A stretch of DNA of 64,000 bases, from positions 1,618,501 to 1,682,500 of the forward strand of contig NZ_CP040517.1 of the NCBI RefSeq assembly GCF_005849285.1, read 5' to 3'. This DNA is from Luteithermobacter gelatinilyticus. GTDB lineage: Bacteria; Pseudomonadota; Alphaproteobacteria; Sphingomonadales; Emcibacteraceae. The translations under genes were made by a program, and so were the position numbers. Each line of letters begins with the position of its first letter. Within the stretch, counting starts at the first letter, position 1. Of this stretch, positions 43,841 through 45,647 are shown one piece after another. The notes under the pieces are model-generated. The model was not told the origin of the DNA. It searched no databases and saw nothing but the letters and a program-made list of their open reading frames with translations.

Positions 43841-44324
43841 TGAAGAATTGCTCGATCTGGCCCGCAACGTTCTGACCCGGGCGCGAGAGCGGAATATTCA
43901 TCTGGCCACGGCGGAATCCTGCACCGGCGGCCTAGTCATGGGGTGCCTGACGGAAATTGCCGGATCTTCAGACGTCGTTGATCGGGGGTTTATCACCTAT
44001 ACCAATCGGGCCAAGGCCGAAATACTTGGGGTTTCCATTGACACCCTTAGCCGGTATGGTGCGGTAAGCGAGGTCTGCGCGCGGGAAATGGCCGAGGGCG
44101 CCGTGCGCAAATCCGCCTCGACCATTGCCGTGGCAGTGACTGGCATCGCCGGACCCGGCGGCGGTACGACAGATAAACCCGTGGGGCTTGTGCATATGGC
44201 GGCCCACCGGCGGGGCGGCATCACCCGGCACGAAGAACACCGTTTCGGCGATATCGGGCGGGAGCAAGTGCGCCGTGAAACCATTGCTGCCGCCCTGAAA
44301 CTTGTTTTGAGTATTATGACCTGA
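43833..44324 (+). CDS. CinA C-terminal domain protein (nicotinamide-nucleotide amidase, PncC-like)
   Basis: 163 residues, only the C-terminal amidase domain of CinA. TAESCTGGLVMGCLTEIAGSS carries the active-site Ser and surrounding motif; FITYTNRAKAEILGVS and VAVTGIAGPGGGTTDKPVG follow. The reaction is deamidation of nicotinamide mononucleotide in NAD recycling. It overlaps pgpA by 8 bp, so ispDF-pgpA-cinA is one operon. No clear terminator follows before the next gene. Confidence 0.94.
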   Translation: MFDEELLDLARNVLTRARERNIHLATAESCTGGLVMGCLTEIAGSSDVVDRGFITYTNRAKAEILGVSIDTLSRYGAVSEVCAREMAEGAVRKSASTIAVAVTGIAGPGGGTTDKPVGLVHMAAHRRGGITRHEEHRFGDIGREQVRRETIAAALKLVLSIMT

Positions 44325-44420
44325 GTTGTTCACTGGAAAGTGTCAAATAATTTTACACCTTCCCCTTTCTTGTGACGAAACTTCTTGGGAAAAAGGCGAG
44401 TTTCTGCGGTTTTTCCGGAA

Positions 44421-44436
44421 TGGCATGGCTTTTGCT
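44421..44436 (+). promoter_or_regulatory. Sigma-54 promoter of the PEP-CTERM gene
   Basis: TGGCATGGCTTTTGCT has the -24 GG (44422-44423) and -12 GC (44434-44435) separated by exactly 10 bp, and matches the consensus TGGCACG-N4-TTGCW closely. Predicted start near 44447, about 43 nt before the coding start. Confidence 0.8.
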
Positions 44437-44489
44437 TAGAGAACCGCGAAGTTCGAAACATCTGTAATAAATATATAGTAGGGTTTAAA

Positions 44490-45116
44490 ATGAAAGTCCT
44501 TTCCTTAAAATCACTGCGCCGTCTGGTCATGCTTTCTCTAATCGGTTTTGCCAATTTATGGGTCGTCCAGTCCGCGTCGGCTCTGGTTCTGGATATCGGT
44601 ACGCCGGGCAGCGGCGGCTGCTGCAGTTTCGGCACCCGCGGCTACTGGTTCGTCGCACCCACCGATTTCACCCTGACAAAACTGAGCCTGCCCAACGAGA
44701 CCGTGACCGACAGCACCATTGAAGTGCTGAAGTTCAATGTCACCCCGCCCGAGTTTTCTGCAACAACCAATGATTTCACCTCTCTGGGCTATTGGGAAGA
44801 TGTCGCCTCTGTGGCCACCTCCCTGTCTTTTTCCGCCGGGGATATTGTGGGCATTCTGGGCTGGGCCGACGGGAAAACAACTTACCGCGACAGTTCAGGG
44901 GATTACAATACAACACTGGGGGGTGAAGCCTTGGCCCTGTCACGTCTCGGCTTCCAGGATCTGGGGCAGGCCTATGATGTTTGGGCCGAAAGCAATGGGT
45001 CTATCGGTATGATTTTCATGGAATATGAACTCACACAGGTTCCCGAGCCTGCACCGCTGGCGCTTGTGGGGCTGGGACTTTTGGGCCTGGGTCTGGTTAG
45101 AAAACGCCGGAACTGA
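44490..45116 (+). CDS. PEP-CTERM sorting-domain exported protein
   Basis: 208 residues. A signal peptide (about 1-31, SLIGFANLWVVQSASA) is followed by a Ser/Thr/Gly-rich secreted region with no recognised enzyme motif and a pair of Cys in GGCCSFG. The C-terminus has the full sorting signal: VPEP (about residue 184), a hydrophobic helix PLALVGLGLLGLGLV and a basic end RKRRN. Such proteins are cut and sorted by exosortase (EpsH/XrtA) and are linked to exopolysaccharide and biofilm matrix; no exosortase is in this window. I chose ATG 44490, with AGTAGGG 6-7 nt upstream. Preceded by a sigma-54 promoter, followed by a terminator. Confidence 0.92.
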   Translation: MKVLSLKSLRRLVMLSLIGFANLWVVQSASALVLDIGTPGSGGCCSFGTRGYWFVAPTDFTLTKLSLPNETVTDSTIEVLKFNVTPPEFSATTNDFTSLGYWEDVASVATSLSFSAGDIVGILGWADGKTTYRDSSGDYNTTLGGEALALSRLGFQDLGQAYDVWAESNGSIGMIFMEYELTQVPEPAPLALVGLGLLGLGLVRKRRN

Positions 45117-45146
45117 TTGAAAATTCCCGAACAGATATCCTCAAAG

Positions 45147-45180
45147 GGCCTCCTGATTTTTCAGGGGGCCTTTTATTATT
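45147..45180 (+). terminator. Rho-independent terminator after the PEP-CTERM gene
   Basis: GGCCTCCTGA (45147-45156) pairs with TCAGGGGGCC (45161-45170) across a TTTT loop (one G-U wobble), followed by TTTTATTATT. Confidence 0.9.
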
Positions 45181-45197: not shown

Positions 45198-45647
45198 TTA
45201 AGAACAGGCTCGGGTCCCTTCGCCATACAGTTCATTGGCGCGGGTTTCAAAGGCGTTGATCATTTTATGTACAGCCTCTGTAAACAGGCCGCCGACCATT
45301 TTTTCAAACAGCTTGTTCTTAAATTCAAAATCCACCAGAAATGTGACTTCGCTACCGCCATCGTCGGTCGGCTTGAATTCCCAGCTGTTTACCAGATATT
45401 TCAGGGGGCCCTTGACATATTCGACCTCAATCCGGTTTTCCTTGAGCTGAACATGAGACGTAAAACGCTCACGGAACATCTTAAAGCCAATGATGAGATC
45501 CGCATAAAAGCTGCCCGGTTTGCGGTTATAAATGCGCGTACCCTGACACCAGGGCAGAAAATTCTGGTATTCGCCCACATTGGCAACCAGCTCATACATC
45601 TGGTCCACCCGATACGGTAATTTGCGCTGATCGGTGAATTTGGGCAT
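45198..45647 (-). CDS. COQ10/RatA-like START-domain protein
   Basis: 149-residue SRPBCC/START-fold protein starting MPKFTDQRKLPYRVDQMYEL, with VGEYQNFLPWCQGTRIY and a C-terminal long helix LFEKMVGGLFTEAVHKMINAF. In bacteria and mitochondria this family (COQ10) helps ubiquinone function; the E. coli relative RatA was described as a toxin that blocks ribosome joining. In alphaproteobacteria it sits after lipA, as here (16 bp). I favour the quinone role. Confidence 0.9.
   Translation of the reverse strand: MPKFTDQRKLPYRVDQMYELVANVGEYQNFLPWCQGTRIYNRKPGSFYADLIIGFKMFRERFTSHVQLKENRIEVEYVKGPLKYLVNSWEFKPTDDGGSEVTFLVDFEFKNKLFEKMVGGLFTEAVHKMINAFETRANELYGEGTRACS

Follow-up and report, generated by a model that had tools for sequence, protein, structure and literature searches.

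The locus raises two questions: what kind of protein is encoded by the gene that follows a -24/-12 box in the window (the whole analysed stretch of 64,000 nucleotides), and which regulator would act at that promoter. Surface proteins of the PEP-CTERM kind are believed to contribute to the cohesion of biofilms or flocs, and the PEP-CTERM/PrsR system was predicted in 2006 and has been partly tested in Aquincola and Zoogloea. In the account of Aquincola tertiaricarbonis, the pepA gene has a mapped sigma-54 start and requires rpoN1, and plasmid-borne prsK or prsK-prsR did not complement a mutant (PMC9850573). In Zoogloea, absence of PrsK or PrsR leads to release of the polysaccharide and loss of flocs, according to the background of PMC9012009. 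A sequence-only reading had placed the window gene in this system. The features found at the locus, and those of a second target discussed below, are listed in Table 1.

Table 1. Features of the PEP-CTERM gene region (window positions) and of the HPr-rel-A cassette (positions in L054).
Feature	Position	Strand	Comment
Predicted PrsR box (Haft 2006 motif 1), TGTCAAATAATTTTACA	44341..44357	+	17 nt; near-palindromic with its flanks; centre at about -98
Weak IHF-like element, doubtful, AAACTTCTTGGGA	44378..44390	+	6 of 9 specified bases; some 11 nt further upstream than is usual in other promoters
Sigma-54 -24/-12 box, TGGCATGGCTTTTGCT	44421..44436	+	GG-N10-GC spacing; 63 nt past the PrsR box; kept in orthologues
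Predicted transcription start	44447	+	Standard sigma-54 geometry, 12 nt past the -12 GC; 43-nt leader
PEP-CTERM protein gene	44490..45116 including stop (codons 44490-45113)	+	ATG start; 208 aa; own transcription unit
Putative N-terminal signal peptide	44490..44576	+	By eye; helix 6-25, model otherwise poor
PEP-CTERM sorting signal (PEP motif, hydrophobic helix, basic tail)	45036..45104	+	PF07589 at residues 183-205; modelled helix 188-207
Predicted Rho-independent terminator hairpin	45144..45173	+	13-pair stem, T-rich stretch after it; -27 kcal/mol
Cassette ORFs: TAT-like 137 aa; PqqD_rel_X; HprK_rel_A; unnamed ORF	L054: 11177-11590; 10763-11077; 9723-10673; 8633-9739	-	All on one strand

In the profile search, the 208-aa protein scored 26.3 bits against PF07589 (cut-off 20.7) and 22.9 bits against TIGR02595 (cut-off 16), the latter a 24-position model that finds matches in 12 of 14 control genomes and exceeds the cut-off in 2. 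Both scores bear out the PEP-CTERM identity given to the protein before. Its C-terminus carries the tripartite signal of exosortase cargo, and an exosortase is encoded in the same genome. The single-sequence structure model is poor (mean pLDDT 41.6), with helix 6-25 standing out at pLDDT 74 and 76 in its first two blocks. No Pfam family matches the middle part, the sole further match reaching 10.1 bits against a cut-off of 28.8. It differs from PepA in that its match to the PepA family model NF033554 is confined to the C-terminal part (residues 151-208; 35.6 bits, cut-off 80). It is encoded in only 3 of the 60 genomes searched, its own included. The two orthologues, from two other genera of the same family (G388 and G387), show 76% and 68% identity over the queried stretch and 71% and 60% over the whole protein, the middle being conserved, and the sole named relative found is a distant one (40%) in a Verrucomicrobiota MAG. 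The gene is a further cargo gene of the PEP-CTERM system predicted in 2006.

The upstream ORF ends at 44324, and downstream of the gene a hairpin is followed by an ORF on the opposite strand (45198-45647); hence the gene forms a single-gene unit, as had been proposed. The terminator attributed to it was recovered by folding, in which the hairpin gave z = -3.03 and none of 200 shuffles was equally stable, although a simple terminator scan of the region lists none.

The perfect spacing claimed for the -24/-12 elements was confirmed, the box at 44421-44436 being an exact GG-N10-GC box and the only exact match to TGGCAYN5TTGCW in the window. Genome-wide, this pattern is matched exactly at 18 places and its reversed control at 3, and the -24/-12 box alone is therefore only modest evidence. 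The evidence is strong for a pair of boxes, since scanning the two window strands with a relaxed two-part pattern gave a single site, 44341-44357/44421-44436, with a gap of 63 nt. The upstream member, which is the only TGTCN8TTACA in the window and had been overlooked in the earlier reading, is the predicted key element of the promoter. Both boxes are kept in the orthologues in G388 and G387, with gaps of 64 and 54 nt, and the other intergenic DNA has diverged.

Haft et al. 2006 (PMC1569441) described a 17-nt motif 1 ending in TTTACA, followed by a spacer (mean 62.8, SD 10.6 nt) and a sigma-54 box, and proposed it as the PrsR site. As judged by that text description, the window promoter is built alike, with a 17-nt box ending in TTTACA, a gap of 63 nt, a sigma-54 box and a single-gene unit, and the genome likewise has XrtA, PrsK, PrsR and PrsT. 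The locus also resembles Aquincola pepA as described in PMC9850573, where a PEP-CTERM gene is combined with a -24/-12 box, an upstream enhancer and a terminator. The statement that such control is little described in this class is only partly right, as R. rubrum is already listed with the motif, PrsK, PrsR and PrsT in the 2006 paper (PMC1569441).

The earlier proposal depended on an exosortase and rpoN being encoded in the genome and pointed to prsK and prsR as further genes to be sought. All are present in the own genome (3.15 Mb, a single contig, 99.3% complete). It has one exosortase, XrtA (309.1 bits, cut-off 208), a PrsK of 673.5 bits (cut-off 300), a PrsR of 704 bits (cut-off 502.6), two PrsT proteins above cut-off (578.7 and 670.2 bits) and a single RpoN (sigma-54). 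An EpsB-type glycosyltransferase, the XrtA-associated ATPase and a FemAB protein also exceed their cut-offs, and four consecutive genes (L051) encode the glycosyltransferase, PrsK, PrsR and one PrsT. Motif 1, the sigma-54 box and the PrsK, PrsR, PrsT and RpoN proteins of a PrsK-PrsR/sigma-54 regulon are therefore found together in this genome.

The suggested scan upstream of all PEP-CTERM genes revealed this promoter at 10 of the 11 TIGR02595 hits over cut-off, the window gene among them. Each has a PrsR box, exact in nine and with one mismatch in the tenth, and then GG-N10-GC, with gaps of 63, 76, 63, 85, 51, 63, 64, 63, 63 and 85 nt. The eleventh hit (C1:1596055; L009/L057) failed the scan; visual inspection shows only a degenerate version there, in which the sigma-54 box is good and the PrsR box has one extra base. 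One PEP-CTERM ORF, L010 (C1:1923151), is about 50 residues long when counted from the ATG and consists of a signal peptide and a sorting tail with almost no passenger, yet has a full PrsR/sigma-54 promoter.

What the DNA shows directly is the two boxes, how they recur, how they are spaced and conserved, and that the components are encoded. With the components present, 10 of 11 promoters alike and the boxes kept in orthologues, the assignment to PrsK, PrsR and RpoN has good in silico support, within the limits of sequence evidence. Thus, the window gene is very probably controlled by PrsK/PrsR/RpoN and encodes exosortase cargo for the matrix.

Across the class, 28 of 387 genomes together contain 90 sites that fit a strict composite pattern, whereas its reversed control matched only twice. 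PrsR was above cut-off in 32 of the 387 genomes, and the composite sites are concentrated there: at least one site was present in 19 of the 32 PrsR genomes and 9 of the 355 others (P 2e-17), and two or more in 14 and 2, respectively (P 3e-15). The strict pattern misses divergent promoters, as 4 of the 10 PEP-CTERM promoters of the own genome (gaps 64, 76, 85 and 85) fail it, and it found no site in 13 of the 32 PrsR genomes. These 13 include all five genomes of a family of the same order (f2; G010, G125, G207, G276 and G339) with PrsR above cut-off, where divergence may have affected the box, the spacing or the sigma-54 box. Conversely, G178 and G381 have five composite sites each and gave no match in the PrsR search at E 1e-140, which may be due to an assembly gap or to another regulator. 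Both the PrsR genomes lacking strict sites and these two genomes count against the PrsR assignment. In G254, which keeps five sites, the PrsR match is shortened (C1:2335817-2336872; profile positions 1-352) with one in-frame TAG.

Seven of the 90 sites (L070, L071, L079, L080, L081, L082 and L085), single ones in genomes without PrsR, were left out of the gap and IHF counts, and 83 were kept; this rule lost at least one probable true site, because L079 precedes a PEP-CTERM-like ORF.

PrsR-type promoters are also found before genes of another kind. In the own genome an HPr-rel-A cassette (TIGR04352, TIGR04353; C1 about 1864632-1867796) lies behind a PrsR box and a sigma-54 box with a gap of 62 nt, TGGCCCCTATTTTGCA. 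HprK_rel_A scored 247.6 bits against TIGR04352 (cut-off 200) and PqqD_rel_X 49.7 bits against TIGR04353 (cut-off 35), and the 137-aa ORF has a twin-arginine-like start. TIGR04353 was above cut-off in 15 of the 387 class genomes, 8 of them with PrsR. The promoter precedes the cassette in 3 of these 8 (exact in G000, the own genome, and G001, with one mismatch in G283) and in 0 of the 7 without PrsR, the sample being small; G078, whose promoter match is poor (three mismatches), was not counted. By eye, most of the loci listed have, ahead of the PqqD gene, a small ORF that likewise begins with an RR...A pattern. The literature search returned nothing on an HPr-rel-A cassette with a TAT-like protein, and its placement here raises the question of why it would be switched on together with matrix proteins.

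Judged from the sites collected, the gap between PrsR box and promoter is helically phased, at about 51, 63, 74, 85 and 96 nt. In the 83 kept sites, the gaps fell at 50-53 (13 sites), 61-65 (62) and 73-75 (6), with 2 elsewhere. The gap windows were fixed as a prediction before the phylum-wide search, which gave 46 new sites, 35 of them within the predicted windows (17.8 expected if even); the figures for the new sites outside the class were 25 of 33 against 12.8, part of the excess being the main peak itself. A search of gaps 76-106 in 24 site-bearing genomes gave 13 sites, against 1 for the control, with gaps of 81, 83, 84, 84, 86, 86, 87, 96, 97, 104, 105, 105 and 106 nt. The last four were read as tandem upstream copies of the box. 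Without the main peak, 49 gaps remain; they fit a period of 10.9 bp with a mean cosine of 0.68, a value that none of 5000 uniform draws attained within periods 10-12. For the 13 far sites by themselves, P is about 0.0004 at period 11, or 0.002 without the tandem copies. These figures overstate the certainty because related genomes are not independent. The own-genome promoters that fail the strict pattern also agree with the phasing. At each of G381:C78, G381:C178, G283:C3 and G283:C21, one promoter is preceded by tandem PrsR boxes with a spacing of about four helical turns.

Alignment of the kept sites on the promoter revealed a spacer consensus, tAAcnnaTTGAAA, that starts 33-30 nt before TGGC. 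The IHF consensus is YAANNNNTTGATW, and the spacer consensus resembles its reverse complement. At least 8 of the 9 specified bases were present in 44 of the 83 sites, as compared with a mean of 5.65 and a maximum of 13 in 200 dinucleotide shuffles, and 40 of the 44 matching elements start at -33 to -30. In a test that had likewise been fixed in advance, 14 of the 46 new sites match at the same position (0.46 in shuffles), including 9 of 33 outside the class (0.3 in shuffles). At the window promoter IHF is not claimed, as the element is weak and about one turn too far upstream. The fixed element about 31 nt before TGGC could instead be an intrinsic bend or the site of a second regulator: tAAcnnaTTGAAA departs at one position from the IHF consensus, and 39 of the 83 spacers reach 8 of 9 nowhere. 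The excess over shuffles, its confinement to four start positions and its replication in new sites make this the less likely explanation, albeit one of some weight.

We lean, with some reserve, towards regarding PrsR promoters across Pseudomonadota as a phase-locked three-part device, with a PrsR box, an IHF-like bend at a fixed place and a sigma-54 box, in which the PrsR box would move only by whole helical turns, and which in some Alphaproteobacteria would also drive the TAT-exported HprK-kinase/PqqD-type cassette along with exosortase cargo. The account of the motif in the 2006 paper reports no helical phasing, spacer element or HPr-rel-A target (PMC1569441). The helical phasing was not found in print elsewhere, nor were the class-wide composite sites, the spacer element or the HPr-rel-A target, and a search combining PEP-CTERM, exosortase and IHF returned no report on these promoters in the sources it covered. 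Follow-up is worthwhile for the phasing, for the spacer element and for the HPr-rel-A target.

For the window gene itself, it is very unlikely that the -24/-12 box is decorative and that transcription comes from a sigma-70-type promoter. Two sigma-70-like matches occur in the region, one of them on the strand of the gene (44484-44511), but that one overlaps the start codon, the two are hardly above shuffles (mean 0.7, sd 1.0), and the two-part sigma-54 layout is conserved in orthologues and paralogues. A sigma-70 promoter was rejected, the matches being weak only. Hardly credible is the suggested tie to nitrogen state through activation by NtrC or NtrX, whose genes share the window (TIGR01818 614.7 bits; NF051870 736.9 bits), since proximity of a regulator gene is no evidence, neither protein reaches the PrsR cut-off, the box upstream is shared with PEP-CTERM genes and tracks PrsR genomes, and NtrC regulon membership was rejected for want of an NtrC-type upstream site between 43592 and 44653 with up to three mismatches to the consensus.

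Under control by PrsK, PrsR and RpoN, an envelope signal would lead PrsK to phosphorylate PrsR, which would then bind the 17-nt box. Bending of the DNA in between, for which IHF may be responsible in most such promoters, would let PrsR meet the RpoN-polymerase at the sigma-54 box and open the promoter. The exported protein would be held by its C-terminal helix until XrtA cuts or transfers it, and the processed protein would join the exopolysaccharide matrix. Binding, activation, processing and the matrix role are proposed here by analogy with work on other bacteria.

The promoter code, with 90 sites against 2 control matches in 387 genomes, is now sharp enough for PrsR regulons to be listed from sequence. 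By regular expression, a PEP-CTERM-like ORF lies within 450 nt of 46 of the 83 kept sites, and 5 further sites (L061, L087, L100, L104 and L114) have one by eye; at several of the remaining sites, contig ends cut off the target region. At L115 (G319) and L123 (G254), PrsR-type promoters precede very long ORFs with a common start (...GRVLFARALEPRFMLDGAAA...), which are not PEP-CTERM proteins in the part examined.
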